From NCBI GenBank assembly GCA_009773185.1, contig WPIF01000011.1:62001-126000 (forward strand): DNA of 64,000 nucleotides, in the 5' to 3' direction. The translations under genes were made by a program, and so were the position numbers. Under the pieces are notes generated by a model that searched no databases, was not told the origin of the DNA, and saw only the letters and a list, made by a program, of their open reading frames with translations. This document shows positions 2,600-52,026 of the stretch, piece by piece. Every line of letters begins with the position of its first letter. The first letter of the stretch is position 1. The stretch comes from Nitrospirota bacterium. GTDB lineage: Bacteria; Nitrospirota; Thermodesulfovibrionia; Thermodesulfovibrionales; UBA1546.

Positions 2600-4153
2600 T
2601 CAGAATATAACTTCAGCGTTTAGTACCATGGCCGGGTCAGCCGCCTTTTTCATTGCCAGGTGTTTATCAACAAGCTCATCTCCCATGGCGCGGCGGATAT
2701 AACCTTTCATCATCCCTCCGAAACGGTAATAACTGAGGCCCATATCAACCCCGATATCATATATTTCATTTTTAAAGGATTGCAGGTAATCACGGCTGTA
2801 ATTTGTGCCTCTGAGCATCGGCTCAAACTCGCAGCCGTAAGCTATATCTGATGCATCAGGCGGAATACATGACATCTCATAACGGGGGAGCCTCCCCCTG
2901 AGTTTGATGCCTACACAATAAAGGGTGTAATGCCTGAAATACTTCCTGCATACTGCATTGCCGCGTTCAACAGCCTCAACGAATTTTTCTGCTTTTGATG
3001 AAAGGTCAGGGATAACCATCTGAGGCCCTCCCCAGAACTTCCATACGGCCCGTGAGAAAACCACCGTACGGTCGATAATCTTTCCGTGATGCATAAATTC
3101 AGGCCGCCAGAATTCAGGAAACAGTTTAAAACGTCTGCCTATAATGTAAGCCGCCTCCTTAATGCGCCAGGGATGCATTGTATAATGCCCTGCCATGCGC
3201 AGGCCGAACCCTGCTTCGCCGTGTCCTCGCAGACTGCGTTTCCAGCGTGTATTGAACTCGCGTTCCCTTTCATCGCTGTCGAAAGCTACAAGAAGGGTTA
3301 TTGCACGGTCCAGGATCGTAAGTATTCCTGAATAATCCGAGGCATCCTCCCTGGCTATAAACTGCAAATCCTCTATAGCAGTGCGCAAAGAAGAATAATA
3401 AAAATATTGTATGGTAATAGGGGTAAATTTCCGTATTTTAAGTGTGGCCTCAGTGATAACGCCGAATTGCCCGTAACCAAACAGTACACGCTCCATGAGA
3501 TCGGGATTTTCCCGCTCTGAGCAGTTGACGATGTCGCCTGTAGGCGTCACGACCTGAAGAACAACTGCCTGGTCAGCGCTGCAACCGAGGCGCGGGGAGT
3601 TGACATCAATACCGCCCACGCCGAGAGTGCCTCCGACAGAAGCTGTAAGATTGAGAGGTGCCGAAAGATAATCAAGGTTGTCGCGCCTTAGAATTTCAGC
3701 AAGCTGATGCCAGAAAATACCTGCCTGTGTGCGGACCGTCATGGCATCAGAGTTTATTTCAAGGACCCTGTTCATGGAACTCATATCAAGAAGCAGCCCC
3801 CCGAATGCAACTGATTCGCCCTCAGTGGTAAGCCCGCCGCCTCTTGTAGTCACCGGTACTCTGTGTGCTTGGGCAGCCCTGAGAACTTTTGAAATATCTT
3901 CTGCTGAGTTTGGCCTTACAACTCCGTGAGGCAGGCTGTATGCAACTCCGCCTGCGTCTGTCATGAATACAGAGCAGTCAGCCCGGCCTTCGCATACTGT
4001 AACTCCTCTTGACTGTAAATCCCGCACAAAATCCTGCCAGTTATCACCCTGCCACCGGGAAGGATTAGTTTTCTGGCGGGGGATGCCCTTAAGTGAATCA
4101 GGGGCAACCGGATCAGGCGGTATAATGCCGCGTTCAAAAACAGGGATATGCAT
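2600..4153 (-). CDS. FAD-linked oxidase, FAD_binding_4 (GlcD/DprE1-like)
   Basis: A 517-residue protein with the PCMH-type FAD fold: VPVTTRGGGLTTEG is the pyrophosphate-binding loop near residue 100, followed by MNRVLEINSDAMTVRTQAG and SVGGTLGVGGIDVNSPRLG, and FGYGQFGVITEATLKI before the substrate-binding half. The N-terminal ~50 residues precede the fold. Such enzymes oxidise hydroxyacids, sugars or lipid-linked riboses and pass electrons to a partner. Here the next gene, 3 bp away, is a two-cluster Fe-S protein, so a membrane- or quinone-linked dehydrogenase is likely. The C-terminus lacks an obvious berberine-bridge motif. The specific substrate is not deducible. Confidence 0.8.
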   Translation of the reverse strand: MHIPVFERGIIPPDPVAPDSLKGIPRQKTNPSRWQGDNWQDFVRDLQSRGVTVCEGRADCSVFMTDAGGVAYSLPHGVVRPNSAEDISKVLRAAQAHRVPVTTRGGGLTTEGESVAFGGLLLDMSSMNRVLEINSDAMTVRTQAGIFWHQLAEILRRDNLDYLSAPLNLTASVGGTLGVGGIDVNSPRLGCSADQAVVLQVVTPTGDIVNCSERENPDLMERVLFGYGQFGVITEATLKIRKFTPITIQYFYYSSLRTAIEDLQFIAREDASDYSGILTILDRAITLLVAFDSDEREREFNTRWKRSLRGHGEAGFGLRMAGHYTMHPWRIKEAAYIIGRRFKLFPEFWRPEFMHHGKIIDRTVVFSRAVWKFWGGPQMVIPDLSSKAEKFVEAVERGNAVCRKYFRHYTLYCVGIKLRGRLPRYEMSCIPPDASDIAYGCEFEPMLRGTNYSRDYLQSFKNEIYDIGVDMGLSYYRFGGMMKGYIRRAMGDELVDKHLAMKKAADPAMVLNAEVIF

Positions 4154-41550: not shown

Positions 41551-41580
41551 TAAAAAACTTCGATGGAAAAGGAGAAAGAT

Positions 41581-42396
41581 ATGTTTAAAAGGATTTTTGC
41601 AATAGTGGTCGTGCTGCTGTGGTCCGGATTGGCCTTCGCTGCCCATCCGCTAATTAGTGACGACACAGGCACACAGGGTAAAGGAAAGTTTCAACTCGAG
41701 GTGAACAGCGAATTCACCTACGAAAAAGAACGGCAGTACAAGGCGGACGAGGATAAATGGGAGACAAAGAAAGAGACTGGAGGCGAATTGGCAACAATAC
41801 TCTCTTACGGCATAACCGATAATGTGGATGTTGTTCTCGGTCTTCCGTATCAATGGAAAAAGACAAGGATAGATAATGTTGTCACCACCGATAAAACCGA
41901 ACAGGGGGACGGCATATCTGATATGTCTTTAGAGGTCAAGTGGAGGTTCTATGAAAAGGATGGGCTTAGCTTCGCCATGAAGCCAGGACTCATACTTCCC
42001 ACAGGTAATGAGAATAAAGGGCTCGGTAACGGCAGGGACTCCTATGCCTTTACATTTATAACAACAAAGGAGATGGAACCCTTGGCATTCCATCTTAATC
42101 TTGCCTATGCCCATAGCGAGTATAAACTTCAGGAAGACAAAGAGGCCAATAGAAGAGACATCTGGCATGCCTCTCTTGCTTCAGAGGTAGAGGCAGTAAA
42201 AAATCTCAGGGTAGTCGCAAATATCGGGATGGAGAGAAATCTCGATAAGACATCCAATACACACCCTGCATTTATACTGGGCGGTTTGATTTATTCCATA
42301 CTTGAGAACTTTGATGTAGATTTTGGTATCAAGGGAGGGCTTAATAAACCCGAAACCGATTATTCAATCCTTGCAGGCATTGCATGGAGGTTTTAA
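41581..42396 (+). CDS. Outer-membrane beta-barrel-like protein under B12 control
   Basis: A 271-residue protein starting at MFKRIF (AAAAGGAGA is eight bases before it; the longer frame from 41563 includes the ribosome site itself). Signal peptide MFKRIFAIVVVLLWSGLAFA, cleaved before AHP. The mature part alternates polar and hydrophobic residues and ends in Phe (AGIAWRF), as outer-membrane barrels do; YGITDNVDVVLGLPYQW is like the MetA-pathway/phenol-degradation outer-membrane family. It lies between riboswitch 2 and cbiM, so a role as a cobalt porin or uptake channel is a fair inference. Confidence 0.75.
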   Translation: MFKRIFAIVVVLLWSGLAFAAHPLISDDTGTQGKGKFQLEVNSEFTYEKERQYKADEDKWETKKETGGELATILSYGITDNVDVVLGLPYQWKKTRIDNVVTTDKTEQGDGISDMSLEVKWRFYEKDGLSFAMKPGLILPTGNENKGLGNGRDSYAFTFITTKEMEPLAFHLNLAYAHSEYKLQEDKEANRRDIWHASLASEVEAVKNLRVVANIGMERNLDKTSNTHPAFILGGLIYSILENFDVDFGIKGGLNKPETDYSILAGIAWRF

Positions 42397-43167
42397 ATGA
42401 AATTACAAATTACAAATTACAAATTACAAATTTTCTTTTTACTTTTTACTGTCCACTATTCACTATTCACTGCTTCTAATGCTCATGCCATGCACATTTC
42501 AGAAGGCATACTGCCTTTCAACTGGGCATTGCTCTGGTCTGCTATCGCGGTTCCGTTTGTGGCATGGGGATTATATAAACTCAAGAAACTGTCGGCGATT
42601 GACCTTTCATTCAAACCCCTCGTGGGATTAATGGCTGCTGTTGTATTCATCATCTCATGCATGCCCATCCCTGTGCCCACAGCAGGCACATGCTCGCATC
42701 CATGTGGCACAGGAATATCAGGGATACTTGTTGGTCCGGCCATAAGCATACTGATTACAACAGTGGCTTTATTAATTCAGGCGCTTTTTCTGGCGCATGG
42801 CGGCCTGAGCACATGGGGCGCTGATATAGTATCCATGGGTGTGATAGGCTCCTTTGCGGGTTTCCTGACATTCAAGGCATTGCGCTCGGTAAAAATAAGC
42901 ATGGCAGTTTCAGGATTCATGGCAGGATTGCTGGCAGACTGGGCAACCTACTGTGCAACATCTGCCGAGCTTGCATCAGGCATAAAAGGCGGCTCAGCAT
43001 TCATGCCCCTTTTCTGGAAGATACTTATCGCATTTATTCCGACTCAGCTTCCGCTGGGAATCCTTGAAGGCGCGATGACAGCAGGCATGGTTACCCTGCT
43101 TTACAAGAAGCGGCCCGACCTTCTGGTAAAGATGCGGGTAATAAAGCAGGAGGAGGCAGCAATATGA
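42397..43167 (+). CDS. cbiM: Cobalt ECF transporter substrate component CbiM
   Basis: A 256-residue membrane protein. The mature CbiM begins MHISEGILPFNWAL; the free N-terminal Met-His binds Co(II) in this family. It is preceded by a 31-residue signal peptide (…SLFTASNAHA) whose DNA is built from ATTACAA and CACTATT tandem units. PIPVPTAGTCSHPCGTGISGILVGP, HGGLSTWGADIVSMG and DWATYCATSAELA are family motifs, with about six membrane segments. Confidence 0.95.
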   Translation: MKLQITNYKLQIFFLLFTVHYSLFTASNAHAMHISEGILPFNWALLWSAIAVPFVAWGLYKLKKLSAIDLSFKPLVGLMAAVVFIISCMPIPVPTAGTCSHPCGTGISGILVGPAISILITTVALLIQALFLAHGGLSTWGADIVSMGVIGSFAGFLTFKALRSVKISMAVSGFMAGLLADWATYCATSAELASGIKGGSAFMPLFWKILIAFIPTQLPLGILEGAMTAGMVTLLYKKRPDLLVKMRVIKQEEAAI

Positions 43168-43511
43168 AAATTCAAAATTCAAAATTCAAAATTCAAAGTT
43201 GCGGAATATTTTTACTGGCAATTTTTGCGCTTTTCACTATTCACTATTCACTATTCACTGACACTGACACTGACACTGTCACTGCCTCTGAAAAATGGCA
43301 GGGTGTTGACGAGTCTGTAATAGAAAAGGTTGCGAAGGAGCATGGCAGAGAGGCAAGGGAGCCGTTCATTAATACGGATCAGGGCGACCTGCTTCTTTTT
43401 GTCTTTCTCCTCGCAGGCACAATCGGAGGCTTCGCAGCAGGATATTACTGGAGGGAACTGATAGGGAATAAAAGACAGAAAGTAAAGAATAAAGAATATG
43501 GAAATCTTTAG
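43164..43511 (+). CDS. CbiN-like small membrane component of the cobalt transporter
   Basis: A 115-residue protein in the usual CbiN place between cbiM and cbiQ. The N-terminal hydrophobic part (GIFLLAIFALFTIHYSLFT) comes from tandem units AAAATTC and CACTATT plus CACTGA, ending in DTDTDTVTAS. Then a soluble stretch with EPFINTDQGDLLLFVFLLAG and one membrane helix ending AGYYWRELIG. The topology (two helices and an acidic loop) fits CbiN but the sequence is divergent, so a CbiN symbol is not assigned. It overlaps cbiM and cbiQ. Confidence 0.7.
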   Translation: MKIQNSKFKIQSCGIFLLAIFALFTIHYSLFTDTDTDTVTASEKWQGVDESVIEKVAKEHGREAREPFINTDQGDLLLFVFLLAGTIGGFAAGYYWRELIGNKRQKVKNKEYGNL

Positions 43512-44250
43512 CGAATACTTCAAAAAAGACCACCTGCTTTCGCAGGTTGACGCGAGGTTAAAACTCGGCGTCAGCCTCTTTGTTTTAGCAATGGTATTGA
43601 GCTATAAAGGGCTTGAGTTTCCTTTATTCATACTGGGCATAAGTCTTTGCCTCTGTATAAGGATGAAAATACCTTTTAAGGTATTTCTTCTGAGATTTTC
43701 AGAGCCTGTGTTTATCGCATCTGTTGTGATATTGCTTAAATTCCTGTTTTCAGGACAGGAGACTATGTTCTCAATAAAGGTGTGGGGCATCACAATAACA
43801 GGACACAAAGACGGGCTTATGGACGGACTGCAAATCGGCAGCAGGATTTTGGGGGCCGTTTCCGTTGTTGCTTTATTGGGCTTTTCTACCCTATTTACAG
43901 AGATAATGGCAGGGTTGTCATGGCTTAAAATCCCCAGGGGCCTTATAGAAATATCGCTGTTTGCCTACAGATATATCTTTGTGCTCTTTGAAGATGCGAT
44001 GGTCATATATAACGCACAGAAAAACCGTCTTGGTTATTCCAATGTCAAGCGGGGATTAAGTTCATTCGGAACCTTGACAGGCTCACTGACACTCAAGGCG
44101 TTTGAACACAGCCAGAACACAACAACTGCAATGCTTCAGAGGGGATATGACGGCAACATCCCGATGTTGAAACACAAGCCGTTCAGGTTTTCGGAAGTAG
44201 CAGCCTCAATTTTATTAGTATTTGCAATGGGGTTTGTATGGCAGATTTGA
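43498..44250 (+). CDS. cbiQ: Cobalt ECF transporter transmembrane component
   Basis: A 250-residue EcfT/CbiQ. LLSQVDARLKLGVSLFVLAM at the start, about five membrane segments, GLSWLKIPRGLIEISLFAYRYIFVLFEDA, and the coupling motifs around NRLGYSN and AMLQRGYDG (an A-x-x-x-R-G box). It links CbiO to CbiM/N in the inner membrane. It overlaps cbiO by 13 bp. Confidence 0.93.
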   Translation: MEIFSEYFKKDHLLSQVDARLKLGVSLFVLAMVLSYKGLEFPLFILGISLCLCIRMKIPFKVFLLRFSEPVFIASVVILLKFLFSGQETMFSIKVWGITITGHKDGLMDGLQIGSRILGAVSVVALLGFSTLFTEIMAGLSWLKIPRGLIEISLFAYRYIFVLFEDAMVIYNAQKNRLGYSNVKRGLSSFGTLTGSLTLKAFEHSQNTTTAMLQRGYDGNIPMLKHKPFRFSEVAASILLVFAMGFVWQI

Positions 44251-45083
44251 AGATAAGATTGTCTGTTCAAATAAATTCATTTAAATATCCGGACGGAACA
44301 CAGGCATTGTCTGATATTGCGGTTAATATCTCGCTTGGAGAATTTATCGGCATACTCGGCTCAAACGGCTCGGGGAAAACAACACTGCTTAGAATAATGG
44401 ACGGCTTAATGAAAGATTTTGAAGGCAGCGCTTATCTTGACGGGGCTGACATAAAAAAACTTTCCCCAAAAGAGATTTACAGTAAGGTTGGCCTTGTCTT
44501 TCAAAATCCGGATGACCAGCTTTTCGCTCCTACTGTATTTGAGGATGTGGCATTCGGCCCGATAAACATGGGGTTCAGGGAAGATGAGGTCATCACCCGT
44601 ATAAACAACGCCCTTAAGGATGTTGATATGCAAGGATACGCAAAGAAGTCTATCCATCATCTTAGTTTCGGGCAGAAAAAGAGGGTTTGCATTGCAGGCC
44701 TTCTGGCAATGGGGCATGAGATACTGCTGCTTGATGAGCCTACAGCCGGATTAGATCCCATGGGAGAATATAAAATGATGAATCTGCTGACAAAGCTCAA
44801 CAAGGAGAAGCGCGTAACTGTTGTTATGGCCACACATAGCGTTGACCTTGTCCCCTTGTTTCTTGACAGGCTTTATATATTAAGCAAGGGCCGTATTGTT
44901 AGAAGCGGTATTCCCGAGGAGGTGTTTACAGCGCCTGATGAGATGGCGAATGTGAAGCTGCGTCTTCCCCAGATCGCGGAATTAATATACAAACTAAGGC
45001 ATGAAGACCATGTGCCGTTTGGAAAAATCCCTCTCACCATCGGTGAGGCAAGAAGAGAGATACTGAAAACTCTCAGATCGTGA
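44238..45083 (+). CDS. cbiO: Cobalt ECF transporter ATPase
   Basis: A 281-residue ABC ATPase: Walker A LGSNGSGKTTLLRIMDGL, Q-loop GLVFQNPDDQLFAPTVFEDVAFGP (the specific CbiO/EcfA form), signature LSFGQKKRVCIAGLLAMG (LSFGQ variant, common in CbiO), Walker [16 protein letters not shown] and ATHSVDLV. It powers cobalt import with CbiMNQ. Confidence 0.95.
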   Translation: MADLKIRLSVQINSFKYPDGTQALSDIAVNISLGEFIGILGSNGSGKTTLLRIMDGLMKDFEGSAYLDGADIKKLSPKEIYSKVGLVFQNPDDQLFAPTVFEDVAFGPINMGFREDEVITRINNALKDVDMQGYAKKSIHHLSFGQKKRVCIAGLLAMGHEILLLDEPTAGLDPMGEYKMMNLLTKLNKEKRVTVVMATHSVDLVPLFLDRLYILSKGRIVRSGIPEEVFTAPDEMANVKLRLPQIAELIYKLRHEDHVPFGKIPLTIGEARREILKTLRS

Positions 45084-45103
45084 ATGAAAGGAGGTGGAGA
45101 AAT

Positions 45104-45265
45104 TTGAATAGTCCCAAAAACAGGGCTAAAAAGCCGGAGACCCGGCTCTGTGAGAAGGTAAAGGCCAGCGTCATATCGTACCATCTCAAATGCGCAAAAA
45201 CAGCTAACGGCTTGACCCACTTTGTGATGTACGGAGATGTTCCGAACAAGAAAATGCCGTTGTAG
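45104..45265 (+). CDS. cbpA: Candidate radical-SAM-modified peptide precursor, CbpA type
   Basis: A 53-residue peptide starting at TTG, nine bases after AGGAGG; the longer frame from GTG 45080 would include that ribosome site. Sequence features: a basic leader (NSPKNRAKKPETRL), two cysteines (C16, C30) and a tail LTHFVMYGDVPNKKMPL. It is followed by a SPASM-type radical SAM enzyme (45407-46744) and preceded by cobalt-transport genes. This matches my recollection of the named pair CbpA (precursor) and CbpB (enzyme), whose genes associate with cobalt transport and B12. The modification is unknown. Confidence 0.65.
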   Translation: MNSPKNRAKKPETRLCEKVKASVISYHLKCAKTANGLTHFVMYGDVPNKKMPL

Positions 45266-45275
45266 GATTTTTACC

Positions 45276-45370
45276 GTAGGGGCGTATTGCAATGCGCCCC
45301 TACGTCATTCCCGTGAAAACGGGAATCCAGAAGAAACTGAAAGCTGGTTTCCTGCTTTTGCAGGAATGAC
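45276..45370. repeat. Two interspersed hairpin repeats between cbpA and cbpB
   Basis: GTAGGGGCG (45276-45284) pairs with CGCCCCTAC (45295-45303). Next to it GTCATTCCCGTGAAAACGGG begins a second repeat, closed by CAGGAATGAC at 45361-45370; this is the widespread GTCATTCCCGC-type intergenic repeat. In RNA they would form hairpins between the peptide and enzyme messages. Confidence 0.75.
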
Positions 45371-45406
45371 AATATCCAAATAAACAATAGGAAAAGGAGA
45401 ATACAT

Positions 45407-46744
45407 ATGAAAAACAATAACCGGGGTCTTTCTTTTTCTGATATTAACCCCGACTGGAAGCTTGCCCTCGATGCCGGCAACGTATTCTGGGGGCTTGCGC
45501 CAAAAAACGGCAATGGGGATTTTCTGCTGCCGGAAGACCTGATAACGCTGTACAAAAATAAAAAGGCTCATCTCGACAAAGAGCTTCACGATTTCAGATT
45601 CAATACGGATTTAAACTGCGTATACATAGACCCTACTGATAGATGTAATGCAAACTGCACATACTGTTATATCCCTGCCAAAATAAGAAAACAGGGCACG
45701 CAGATGACAGGGAAGGAACTCAACACTGCATTGGAAAAGATTGCGGTACATTTCAGAAATTCGTCAAAAAAACCTGTGATAGTATTTCACGCTGCTGAAC
45801 CTTTGTTGGTGAAAGACATACTGTTTGACTCCATAAAAAAATTCAGCAGCAAATTCGTTTTCGGCATTCAGACAAATACACTCCTTCTCGAAAAAAGAGA
45901 CGCGGAGTTTATGAAAAAATACAGGGTAGGCGTAGGCATATCGCTTGATGCGCCGGATGCTCATACAAACAATCTCTCACGGGTAACGGCAAAAGACAGG
46001 GGCAATTTTGAGAAAGCTGTTCAGGCATTAGACTGGTTTAAAGGGTATAAAGGGTTGAATGTAATCTCGACTGTCACAAAATTCAATGTCAGGAAGCTTT
46101 CAGAGCATGTAAGATTTCTCCATAAAAAAGGAGTGCCGTGCATACTTTTAAATCCCGTCCGTGTGACACAAAAACAGGCATTGAAACAGAAGCCGGATGA
46201 AAAGGAGTTTGCAAAAGAATTAATAAAGGCCATTGAGACAGCGGTAGAGCTTACAAAAAAATCAGGCAGGCAGATAGTTGTGGGCAACTTTGCAAATGTT
46301 ATTCTTGCAATAATATCGCCTGCTGCCAGGCGCATGATGTGTGACATCTCCCCTTGCGGCGGCGGCAGGACATTTCTTACAATCACTGCAAACGGCGATA
46401 TGGTTCCTTGCGGCGAGTTTATCAGCTTCAAGGAATTTTCAGGAGGAAATATCTTCAAGACATCAATTGAAAAAGCGATGAACTCAAAGCCATTTAAAAC
46501 AATCAGGGCAAGGACTGTGGAGAAGATCGATGAATGCAGCGCCTGCGACTTCAGGCATATATGCGGCTCGCCATGCCCCGCTGAGATGTATGCGAGAGGC
46601 AATATGTACAGAAAGGCTGAGTTTTGCGGGTTTTACAAAGAGATGATAAGATATGCTTTTAAATTGATATCTGAAGATAAGGTCCCATATCTTCTCAGAG
46701 AAGGCTCTCTGCAACAGATGCAGTATGAGTACCGCTATGCGTAA
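45407..46744 (+). CDS. cbpB: Peptide-modifying radical SAM/SPASM enzyme, CbpB type
   Basis: A 445-residue enzyme. The SAM cluster motif is DRCNANCTYCY (C80, C84, C87). The C-terminal auxiliary-cluster region has MCDISPCGGG, GDMVPCGEF, ECSACDFRHICGSPCPAE and AEFCGFYKEM, a full SPASM-like set. VIVFHAAEPLLVKDILFD corresponds to the usual GGEPLL motif, here HAAEPLL. The first ~65 residues precede the barrel and could bind the leader peptide. Genes on each side (cbiO, cobA) tie it to B12. GGAGA precedes the ATG. Confidence 0.85.
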   Translation: MKNNNRGLSFSDINPDWKLALDAGNVFWGLAPKNGNGDFLLPEDLITLYKNKKAHLDKELHDFRFNTDLNCVYIDPTDRCNANCTYCYIPAKIRKQGTQMTGKELNTALEKIAVHFRNSSKKPVIVFHAAEPLLVKDILFDSIKKFSSKFVFGIQTNTLLLEKRDAEFMKKYRVGVGISLDAPDAHTNNLSRVTAKDRGNFEKAVQALDWFKGYKGLNVISTVTKFNVRKLSEHVRFLHKKGVPCILLNPVRVTQKQALKQKPDEKEFAKELIKAIETAVELTKKSGRQIVVGNFANVILAIISPAARRMMCDISPCGGGRTFLTITANGDMVPCGEFISFKEFSGGNIFKTSIEKAMNSKPFKTIRARTVEKIDECSACDFRHICGSPCPAEMYARGNMYRKAEFCGFYKEMIRYAFKLISEDKVPYLLREGSLQQMQYEYRYA

Positions 46745-47255
46745 AGGTTATATACAAGTCTACACAGGCAATGGCAAAGGCAAAACCACTGCATCCCTTG
46801 GTCTTGCCTTAAGGGCGGCAGGAGCAGGACTTAAGGTATTTATCGTACAATTTATTAAAAAAAGAAGATGCAGCGAACATAAGGCGCTTGAAAGATTCGG
46901 GGACCTCATTACTGTCAGACAATATGGAACCGGATTTATAAAGGGCAAAAAACCTGCAAGCTCTGCGATTGCATCCGCAAAAAAGGGGATCAAGGATGTA
47001 AAAAAAGCGCTCTTGTCAGGACATTATGACATGGTGATACTGGATGAGGTAAATATTGCCGTTCATTACGGGCTTATTAGCGCAGATGATGTACTGGAAT
47101 TGCTTGATGAAAAACCTCCCGAGACAGAGGTCATCATAACAGGTAGATATGCGGATGAAAAACTTATTAAAAAGGCAGATCTCGTAACTGAGATGAGAGA
47201 GATCAAACACTATTTTAAAGAAGGCGTTAAAGCAAGGGAAGGCATAGAATACTGA
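46737..47255 (+). CDS. cobA: Cob(I)alamin adenosyltransferase, CobA/CobO type
   Basis: A 172-residue P-loop enzyme: GYIQVYTGNGKGKTTASLGLALRAAGAGLKV at the start (quoted in part: GNGKGKTT), VFIVQFIKK, MVILDEVNIAVHYGLI and EMREIKHYFKEGVKAREGIEY at the end. It transfers adenosyl to cobalt. ATG at 46737 matches the family N-terminus; ATG at 46725 is also open, and both overlap the end of cbpB. Confidence 0.93.
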   Translation: MRKGYIQVYTGNGKGKTTASLGLALRAAGAGLKVFIVQFIKKRRCSEHKALERFGDLITVRQYGTGFIKGKKPASSAIASAKKGIKDVKKALLSGHYDMVILDEVNIAVHYGLISADDVLELLDEKPPETEVIITGRYADEKLIKKADLVTEMREIKHYFKEGVKAREGIEY

Positions 47256-47264
47256 GGTGAAAGA

Positions 47265-48023
47265 ATGAAAAAGATATACCTTATCGGGATTGGTCCTGGC
47301 AGCAGGGATTATCTAACTATTCAGGCGATTGAGACACTAAAAAAGGTTGATGTCTTTTTGCTTCTAGAAAGGGGCGAAAGGAAGGACAGGGACCTATTAG
47401 GCCTCAGAAAAGAGATATTAGAAAGACATCTAAAGCATGGAAGCTATAGAGTTGTAACAAAGAAGATGCCGGTGCGTAAAAGAAGCCGTATGGCATATCA
47501 GGAAGAGGTTGCTAAGTGGCGTGGTGAAGTGGCCACCACTATTGAAGAATTCATAGAAAATGAATTAAAGGATGATCATAGCGGCGGTATTCTTGTCTGG
47601 GGAGACCCTGCATTATACGACGGCCATTTAGAAATGCTGCGAGGGCTTTCAAAGAAGATAGAATTCAGTTACGAGGTGATTCCGGGGATAAGCAGTATTC
47701 AGGTCTTGGCAGCCAAACATAAAATACCCCTGAATCGCATTAGTGAACCAATCTTAATTACAACAGCGAGACACCTAAAAGAATACAATCCGGCAGAGAT
47801 TAAAAATATGATAGTCGTTCTGGACTCGCATGCAAGCTTTAAGGCTGTTGACGATGAGGATATTGATATTTATTGGGGTGGTTATCTTGGCAGCGATGAT
47901 GAAATCTTGCTTTCAGGCAGATTGAAGGATATAAAAGAAGAAATAAAAAAAACCATAATTGAGGCAAAAAGGAGAAAGGGCTGGATAATGGATTCTTACA
48001 TTCTCAGGAGAGCAAGTGAATAA
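47265..48023 (+). CDS. cobF: Precorrin-6A synthase (deacetylating)-type methyltransferase CobF
   Basis: A 252-residue tetrapyrrole methylase. YLIGIGPGSRDYLTIQAIETL is the SAM loop; LVWGDPALYDGHLEML, YEVIPGISSIQVLAAKHKIPLNRI, VVLDSHASFKAVDDEDIDIYWGGYLGSDDEILLSG and KGWIMDSYILRR (each in part) match CobF, which adds the C-1 methyl in the oxygen-dependent pathway. The anaerobic counterpart CbiD is unrelated and not found here. The gene sits in the middle of an otherwise CbiX/CbiG-type cluster and overlaps cbiET by 8 bp. Confidence 0.88.
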   Translation: MKKIYLIGIGPGSRDYLTIQAIETLKKVDVFLLLERGERKDRDLLGLRKEILERHLKHGSYRVVTKKMPVRKRSRMAYQEEVAKWRGEVATTIEEFIENELKDDHSGGILVWGDPALYDGHLEMLRGLSKKIEFSYEVIPGISSIQVLAAKHKIPLNRISEPILITTARHLKEYNPAEIKNMIVVLDSHASFKAVDDEDIDIYWGGYLGSDDEILLSGRLKDIKEEIKKTIIEAKRRKGWIMDSYILRRASE

Positions 48024-50838: not shown

Positions 50839-51024
50839 GCAGATGCGGGAATAGATTTCAAGCCGATATGAGCCAAATTATTAAACCTTCCTATCGGTTT
50901 GCCGGCGCCGGCAAACTGATAGATGGCGTAATAGGAATGAGGATGGGAAGTAAAAGGCGAATGGTGAAAGAAAAGAAAGCCCTGCAAATGCAGGAGCAGG
51001 GATGGATTTTAAGACGATATGAGC
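50839..51024. repeat. 34-bp imperfect direct repeat before rhuM
   Basis: GCAGATGCGGGAATAGATTT at 50839 and GCAGGAGCAGGGATGGATTT at 50991 each continue to GACGATATGAG or GCCGATATGAG. The second copy contains the rhuM start, the first a matching ATG at 50868. The 245-bp gap shows no other gene. The duplication may mark the rhuM insertion edge. Confidence 0.5.
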
Positions 51025-52026
51025 GGTAAAACAAATCCCCAATTTTCGGATATTATCCTTTATTCCTCGCCGGAGGGGAATACTCATGTAGAAGTGCTTT
51101 TTAGCGATGAGACCTTCTGGCTCAGTCAAAAGCGGATGGCTGAATTATTCGGCGTTGAGATCCATACCATCAACTATCACCTCAAAGACATCTTTAAAAC
51201 AGGAGAATTAGTGGAAGATTCAGTTATTCGAAAAATTCGAATAACTGCCGATGATGGAAAGAACTACTTAACAAACCTCTACAACTTGGACGTAATCATT
51301 GCCGTTGGCTACAGGGTAAACAGTCATCAGGCTACAAAATTCCGAATCTGGGCAACTAAGACGCTGAAAGAGTTTATCGTCAAGGGTTTTGTATTGGATG
51401 ATATTCGCCTTAAACAGGGGAAACGGTTTGGGAAAGATTACTTCGATGAACTCCTGGAACGCATACGGGAGATACGGGCAAGCGAAAGGCGTTTCTATCA
51501 GAAAATCACCGACATATATCAGCAATGCAGCATTGACTATGACAAGGATGCGGAAATAACTGAGACCTTTTTTAAGACCGTGCAGAACAAGCTGCATTGG
51601 GCGATCACCGGAAAAACCGCCGCTCAGATAATCGCCGAAAGAGCCGATTCTTTAAAGCCACATATGGGCCTTCAAACATGGAAGAATGCGCCGCAAGGCA
51701 AGATATTGAAGACAGATATTACAGTCGCAAAAAACTATCTTATCGAAAAGGAAATCAAGGAACTGGAGCGCATTGTCTCAATGTACCTGGACTATGCTGA
51801 AAATCAGGCTGCTCGCCAGATTCCGATGAAGATGAAGGAGTGGGTACGAAAGCTGGATGCATTTCTTAAATTCAATGAATACCAGATATTGAAGAACGCG
51901 GGCAAGGTAAGCAACTCTGTGGCTAAGCAACTGGCGGAAGAGGAATACGAAAAATTCAGGGTCGTTCAGGACAGAGAATTTGTAAGTGATTTTGATAGAG
52001 AAGTGAAGAGAATAAAAAAGAAGTGA
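51019..52026 (+). CDS. rhuM: RhuM-family protein (virulence/phage-like)
   Basis: A 335-residue protein. FWLSQKRMAELFGVEIHTINYHLKDIFKTGEL is a winged-helix/KilA-N-like DNA-binding part, and YNLDVIIAVGYRVNSHQATKFRIWATKTLKEFIVKGFVLDDIRLKQG (in part) is the RhuM signature; the C-terminal half is helical with Fic-antitoxin-like charge. RhuM genes travel with mobile and defence regions; the function is unknown. It splits the cobalamin operon between cbiF and cbiG-cbiH on the same strand, so it is probably a later insertion. Confidence 0.88.
   Translation: MSGKTNPQFSDIILYSSPEGNTHVEVLFSDETFWLSQKRMAELFGVEIHTINYHLKDIFKTGELVEDSVIRKIRITADDGKNYLTNLYNLDVIIAVGYRVNSHQATKFRIWATKTLKEFIVKGFVLDDIRLKQGKRFGKDYFDELLERIREIRASERRFYQKITDIYQQCSIDYDKDAEITETFFKTVQNKLHWAITGKTAAQIIAERADSLKPHMGLQTWKNAPQGKILKTDITVAKNYLIEKEIKELERIVSMYLDYAENQAARQIPMKMKEWVRKLDAFLKFNEYQILKNAGKVSNSVAKQLAEEEYEKFRVVQDREFVSDFDREVKRIKKK

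Follow-up and report, generated by a model that had tools for sequence, protein, structure and literature searches.

What does a gene for a 53-residue peptide, followed by the gene of a radical SAM enzyme, contribute to a vitamin B12 operon? The question is raised by a 64,000-nucleotide stretch of a Nitrospirota genome (contig WPIF01000011.1, positions 62,001 to 126,000; hereafter the window). Intracellular handling of cobamides, that is their protection, carriage and reduction before adenosylation, still has missing players. A sequence-only reading of the window had assigned peptide and enzyme to the CbpA/CbpB type, had suggested a cobalt carrier or a regulator of uptake as the product and had added that the chemistry is not known to have been described. 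Both families are already in NCBIfam, and this kind of gene pair is known; in line with this, we found no description of the families, their chemistry or their function in openly licensed papers. Our tentative first choice among the possible explanations is that cbpAB is a self-sufficient cassette of the cobalamin regulon, which makes a radical-modified cytosolic peptide for the cobamide economy and is not primarily a cobalt carrier for corrin synthesis. The features on which the analysis is based are listed in Table 1.

Table 1. Features of the cbpAB operon in the window (nucleotide positions) and cobalamin riboswitches lying directly before cbpA in other genomes.
Feature	Position or genome (locus)	Strand	Remarks
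Cobalamin riboswitch aptamer, RF00174	41418..41540	+	68.3 bits, gathering threshold 31.5; partial, model positions 47-167; upstream of omp-cbiMNQO-cbpAB-cobO
cbiM, cbiN-like, cbiQ, cbiO (ECF cobalt uptake genes)	42397..45083	+	NCBIfam/Pfam CbiM, CbiQ, CbiO
Shine-Dalgarno sequence of cbpA	45088..45097	+	AAAGGAGGTG; strong; close relatives have AAAGGAGGTGA
cbpA-like precursor	45104..45265	+	53 aa, TTG start; MNSPKNRAKKPETRLCEKVKASVISYHLKCAKTANGLTHFVMYGDVPNKKMPL; stop 45263-45265
In-frame leader insertion of cbpA	45134..45160	+	approximate extent, relative to L010; contains non-conserved Cys16
Conserved CbpA core, V23-L53	45170..45262	+	C30, G36, L37 and H39 invariant in all family members
Intercistronic hairpin region	45266..45406	+	141 nt; MFE -54.5 kcal/mol, z -6.6 versus shuffles
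15-bp hairpin in cbpA-cbpB gap	45275-45304	+	part of the intercistronic region
27-nt-arm hairpin in cbpA-cbpB gap	45304-45370	+	dispersed repeat CATTCCCGTGAAAACGGGAATCC..., found at 16 places of this genome
cbpB, radical SAM/SPASM peptide maturase	45407..46744	+	445 aa; TIGR04163, 496.9 bits
cobO/cobA corrinoid adenosyltransferase	46725..47255	+	TIGR00708, 190 bits, cut-off 168; start overlaps cbpB end
Standalone riboswitch-cbpAB	G172 (L104)		82 bits
Standalone riboswitch-cbpAB	G021 (L103)		81 bits
Standalone riboswitch-cbpAB	G310 (L107)		74 bits
Riboswitch and cbpA at contig end	G132 (L121)		88 bits; CbpB past contig end

The pair had been placed between cbiO and cobA, downstream of a B12 riboswitch, and this is right, the order being cbiM-cbiN-cbiQ-cbiO-cbpA-cbpB-cobO. 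The cbiN-like ORF (43164-43511, 115 aa) is named by its position; it is conserved in relatives and has no Pfam or NCBIfam match. The first gene past the riboswitch (41563-42396) encodes an outer-membrane-type protein (Phenol_MetA_deg, PF13557), which several relatives likewise have ahead of cbiM and which is possibly a metal or corrinoid porin. Further downstream, a CobF-type precorrin-6A synthase (47265-48023; TIGR02434, 297 bits) is found in a B12 cluster that is otherwise of the anaerobic type, with CbiX-CbiC and CbiG-CbiH fusions. The window genome has no CbiD, which in many relatives is encoded after cbpB, and CobF may stand in for it. Foreign to the cluster is an ORF of 335 aa between cobM and cbiGH (51019-52026), RhuM-like by eye and without an NCBIfam match.

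The extent and the TTG start proposed for the peptide proved correct. The sequence-only reading had named two results that would speak against it, absence of a conserved peptide from homologous loci and lack of translation of 45104-45265. Regarding the first, we compared 71 CbpB loci (64 from public genomes and those of the 37 CbpB-positive genomes in a sample of 396 genomes of the phylum, after removal of duplicates). A CbpA peptide is encoded upstream of CbpB in 63 of them, in Nitrospirota, Omnitrophota, Planctomycetota and archaea; the remaining loci lie at contig ends (L013, L040, L056, L065, L066), adjoin masked DNA (L053, L108) or come from one genome with the two genes on different contigs (L043/L123). 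A profile of the CbpA core matches 38 of the 396 sampled genomes, one more than CbpB, and the few genomes with a single partner are at contig ends (CbpA only: G132, G054) or contain masked DNA (CbpB only: G296). In G316 (L123:2047 and L124), cbpA and cbpB are on separate contigs with unrelated sequence past cbpA, a rearranged cassette. Regarding translation, the Shine-Dalgarno sequence and the position of the ATG or TTG start are maintained in relatives. Pairwise differences among 47 distinct DNA cores fall mainly on third codon positions (13728, versus 2395 and 1454 at first and second positions), and pN/pS of the core is 0.076. Such purifying selection indicates that CbpA is translated and selected, and rules out that cbpA is an untranslated or chance ORF. 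Hence cbpA is what is expected of the precursor in a RiPP precursor/maturase pair: short, genetically linked to the enzyme and under selection.

The assignment of the pair to CbpA/CbpB was to be verified with the family models, which gave a divided answer. CbpB falls squarely within TIGR04163 (rSAM_cobopep), scoring far above the cut-off of 375 bits and covering profile positions 9-424 of 428, which bears out the SPASM enzyme of CbpB type proposed earlier. The window peptide is undetected by TIGR04164 (cobo_pep; cut-off 35 bits), even at E = 10. Canonical CbpAs pass this model with 46-49 bits, and archaeal forms remain below its cut-off with 30.3 and 20.3 bits. Nevertheless the peptide is homologous to CbpA: in an alignment of window, archaeal and canonical sequences (A2), C8, G14, L15 and H17 are invariant and join the three forms by a shared core. 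These forms differ in their ends. The window form carries the tail YGDVPxKKMPL and occurs in Nitrospirota, Omnitrophota, Nitrospinota and one archaeal locus (L058); the short archaeal form (L060, L061) ends in SDESPF, and the canonical form ends near MDKK. TIGR04164 thus overlooks the commonest Nitrospirota/Omnitrophota form of CbpA. A search of the CbpA profile against the PDB returned antibody chains only, with poor E-values, which we treat as chance.

Aligning the precursor tails across genomes, as had been advised, yielded the four invariant residues of Table 1 within the pattern C-x3-[AGS]-x-G-L-[STA]-H-[FY]-[VIL]. Among the 47 distinct cores, position 38 is T, S or A, position 40 F or Y and position 41 V, I or L; within the Nitrospirota/Omnitrophota type nearly the whole 30-residue core is conserved. 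Two cysteines had been pointed out in the peptide. Both are present in the window, but only C30 is conserved, whereas C16 lies in the leader insertion; each of the 47 cores contains exactly one cysteine, which together with the position of C16 rules out two functional cysteines in CbpA. Among the loci compared for this insertion (L010, L011, L012), a comparable one occurs elsewhere only in L012, where it is longer and has Tyr at the Cys16 position. The L012 leader contains an in-frame palindromic insertion, CCCGTTAGAAGC...GCTTCTAACGGG (about 3200-3330, upstream of CbpB), a repeat that entered coding sequence without breaking the reading frame. The leader is usually basic (median net charge +6), as had been noted for the window, but it is variable and in some archaeal homologues not basic. 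A variable leader next to a conserved core suggests a double role for the C-terminal 30 residues, as the part recognised by the enzyme and as the functional part. Judged from this conservation pattern, recognition by CbpB probably uses the core of CbpA, with a leader that is variable and tolerates insertions.

In CbpB, the radical SAM cysteines C80, C84 and C87 (CX3CX2C) and the SPASM cysteines C312, C317, C335, C377, C380, C386, C390 and C407 are invariant in an alignment (A1) of 31 homologues. An AlphaFold2 model (pLDDT 88.4, pTM 0.89) has CteB, anSME, ChlB, TigE, SkfB and SuiB as nearest solved folds in Foldseek. By analogy, three [4Fe-4S] clusters and the formation of an oxidative cross-link would be expected of CbpB. 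Since CbpA has a lone conserved cysteine, a thioether is the leading guess for this link; the alternative is an aromatic one at H39 or F40. The N-terminal 66 residues of CbpB fold into a beta-beta-beta-alpha unit in which F27, W28 and R64 are invariant; Pfam gives no match for it, PqqD/RRE included, and the PDB no significant one, and an RRE domain in CbpB is accordingly unsupported.

The gap between cbpA and cbpB folds strongly. In the clade of the window, 32 of 33 loci have a cbpA-cbpB gap with z below -3, as compared to 12 of 40 control same-strand gaps from the same loci (Fisher p about 1e-9, the loci being not fully independent). No terminator-like T-run follows the hairpins of the window. 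Together with the strong Shine-Dalgarno sequence of cbpA, the hairpin gap suggests that more CbpA than CbpB is made, as for a product needed in stoichiometric amounts.

Where cbpAB lies among B12 genes varies from locus to locus, yet its neighbours nearly always belong to this pathway. In 31 loci the pair directly follows cbiO; elsewhere the gene just before it is cbiB, cbiG/H, an amidotransferase-like cluster gene, cobD, cbiX, cbiL, cobC, cobT, cbiA or btuB. Downstream are cbiD, cobO, cbiA, cbiX, cobS and others. Comparison of the neighbourhoods revealed no partner gene common to all cbpAB loci, and neither an exporter nor a protease is a consistent neighbour. In five loci of one family of the class (L031, L039, L048, L094, L095), an HD-domain protein is encoded after cbpB, directly or past cbiX/cbiE-like genes.

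The 31 loci with cbiO directly upstream favour a cobalt carrier, one of the products suggested by the sequence-only reading. In this explanation, mature CbpA would chelate Co(II) delivered by CbiMNQO and supply with it the CbiX/CbiK chelatase of corrin synthesis. Moreover, cbiX adjoins cbpAB in four loci (L031, L094, L095, L067), and the potential Cys and His ligands of CbpA are conserved. A carrier of this kind should occur in corrin-making genomes only. Eight genomes with the cassette have neither CbiC nor CbiD (G160, G328, G209, G244, G132, G378, G401, G260). One of them, G260, does not qualify as a genome without corrin synthesis: cbiL, cbiF and cbiG/H are present, and CbiC and CbiD were probably lost at contig ends. 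G030, a 79%-complete genome in which CbiC is missing and CbiD present, was left uncounted. The other seven also have no CbiG, and they possess one or two tetrapyrrole methylases as compared to five to seven in ring-making controls. Five (G160, G328, G209, G244, G132) are at least 96% complete; two are independent assemblies of one genus. The absences are read from metagenome-assembled genomes, in which one lost contig could remove a whole cluster, as in G260, and G132 shows cbpA only, cbpB being past the contig end. The cassette therefore appears to serve corrinoid salvagers as well. At least five near-complete genomes thus retain CbpA or CbpAB although corrin-ring genes are missing, and G160 and G328 among them have no CbiM either, which weakens the cobalt carrier. 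Against it are also neighbours that often belong to the late pathway or to salvage, such as the order cobT-cbpA-cbpB-cobS-cobC (L084) and a locus (L105) with cobD, cbiZ, btuFCD, cobO and cobU. A cobalt role is still conceivable in G160, G328 and G378, where cbiX is retained beside cbpAB. On balance we consider a carrier for corrin synthesis unlikely. A different connection, to the corrinoid protein of the Wood-Ljungdahl pathway, was rejected: CdhD is encoded in 34 of 37 genomes with CbpB versus 147 of 359 others of the phylum, but this is a lineage effect that vanishes within the class of the window (32 of 35 versus about 126 of 132; Fisher p = 0.40, counts from listed rows).

Regulation ties the cassette to B12 more directly. 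In three genomes, cbpAB has no other B12 gene around it and is directly preceded by a cobalamin riboswitch; in a fourth, the contig breaks off past riboswitch and cbpA (Table 1). These standalone two-gene operons speak for a cassette that works without additional dedicated genes. No cobalamin riboswitch was found at the archaeal cbpAB loci, nor before cbpA in the Planctomycetota locus L062. In two archaea (L058, 6842-7651; L060, 6100-6891), the sole DUF7839 winged-helix regulator (PF25211) of the genome is encoded divergently to cbpA; in a third archaeon, the single DUF7839 protein (L128:15805-16647) is beside btuFCD, cbiMNQO and corrin genes. The DUF7839 protein is a candidate archaeal regulator of B12 or cobalt genes. 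Two unrelated control devices, a riboswitch in bacteria and a DUF7839 regulator in archaea, hence link the cassette to B12. In the openly licensed literature we came across no description of cbpAB operons standing alone behind a riboswitch, of the archaeal regulator link, of the cassette in genomes that lack corrin synthesis or of the conserved hairpin.

This riboswitch linkage gives direct regulatory support to a B12-linked role, which may include the regulation of uptake proposed earlier; a regulatory role of the peptide itself is one candidate among several. Mature CbpA might bind a transporter, a riboswitch-controlled enzyme or a regulator and so adjust the uptake of corrinoids or cobalt in B12-starved cells. 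The riboswitch linkage and the predicted excess of peptide over enzyme would fit, as would the near-complete conservation of the core in the Nitrospirota/Omnitrophota type, which resembles that of a binding surface. Nonetheless we regard this role as improbable, in view of the missing common partner gene and of a three-cluster radical enzyme that a purely regulatory role does not obviously need. Riboswitch control and gene neighbourhood speak to the timing of CbpA synthesis rather than to its binding partner. Chance association, or a decayed and presently functionless cassette, is almost certainly wrong. The rearranged cassette of G316 could be taken for decay, but the low pN/pS already contradicts this, active-site and cluster residues are invariant, and the pair is present in both Archaea and Bacteria, linked to a riboswitch or a regulator.

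The gene orders also bear on whether CbpA is trimmed, like PqqA, to a small cofactor or a precursor of the lower ligand of cobamides. The flanking cobT and cobS-cobC of L084 and the position among nucleotide-loop genes in L031 point in this direction, and PqqE and MftC provide a precedent (PMC5682303). However, the pair is not accompanied by a protease or any other biosynthetic gene, standalone operons consist of cbpA and cbpB only, and conservation reaches the C-terminal KKKMPL, residues that would be lost from such a product. A peptide-derived small molecule is accordingly very unlikely.

For the preferred cytosolic peptide of the cobamide economy, we propose the following course of events. 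When B12 is low, the riboswitch would permit transcription of the operon, and CbpA would be made in excess over CbpB. CbpB, as a three-cluster radical SAM/SPASM enzyme, would then install a radical-made modification on the C-terminal core; a single cross-link within the peptide, with the only invariant cysteine taking part, is its most plausible form. Mature CbpA presumably stays in the cytosol, since no signal peptide is apparent by eye and no exporter or protease is a consistent neighbour. There it would act on cobamides under B12 scarcity, probably as a ligand for corrinoid cobalt or for another partner; Cys30, if free, and His39 would be the simplest ligands. In a narrower and rather doubtful version, mature CbpA would be an intracellular, ribosomally made corrinoid-handling peptide of Bacteria and Archaea, a ligand built by radical SAM chemistry for the cobalt of cobamides that are taken up or freshly synthesised. 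It would be made when the B12 riboswitch is unoccupied and would hold the cobalt for uptake, remodelling or reductive adenosylation. If this holds, cobamide handling would gain a novel type of participant, a radical-SAM peptide under the direct control of the B12 riboswitch. A substrate of 53 aa, four defined residues (C30, G36, L37, H39) and standalone two-gene operons are concrete handles that make the question testable.

Usual RiPP precursors have a conserved leader and a variable core; CbpA shows the reverse. With the thioether-forming SCIFF system CteA-CteB (ranthipeptides), the window pair shares the fold, CteB being the nearest solved structure and a profile match of CbpB. It differs in that CbpA has one conserved cysteine, not six, so that a precursor with multiple cysteines is not found in any of the cores, and in that CbpB has no recognisable RRE. 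PapA-type ranthipeptides have the motif CX3D, whereas position +4 is A, G or S in all 47 CbpA cores. The sulfatase motif is of the CxPxR type; the CbpA sequence after the cysteine does not fit it, unlike the substrates of anSME, and the substrate of CbpB would be a short peptide and no sulfatase. Common to both enzymes are a close fold and the spacing of the eight SPASM cysteines, which matches the eight listed cysteine ligands of the auxiliary clusters of anSME (PMC5682303). PqqA/PqqE and MftA/MftC likewise combine a single conserved precursor with a SPASM enzyme for intracellular cofactor metabolism; in the window pair, by contrast, protease and follow-up enzymes are lacking, the pathway is that of cobamides and the whole core is conserved. 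Closest are the NCBIfam types themselves. CbpB has the full-length match to TIGR04163, the motifs and SPASM cysteines, the short peptide upstream and the B12 gene context, but in a tree it belongs to a second deep clade, with about 40-45% identity to the canonical one (660-708 bits). CbpA shares with TIGR04164 members the core C-x3-[AG]-x-G-L-[ST]-H-[FY]-[VI]-[LM] and the position upstream of CbpB; it differs by the extra tail YGDVPxKKMPL and by ANG in place of GTG, and the window cassette by its longer, hairpin-containing gap before cbpB.
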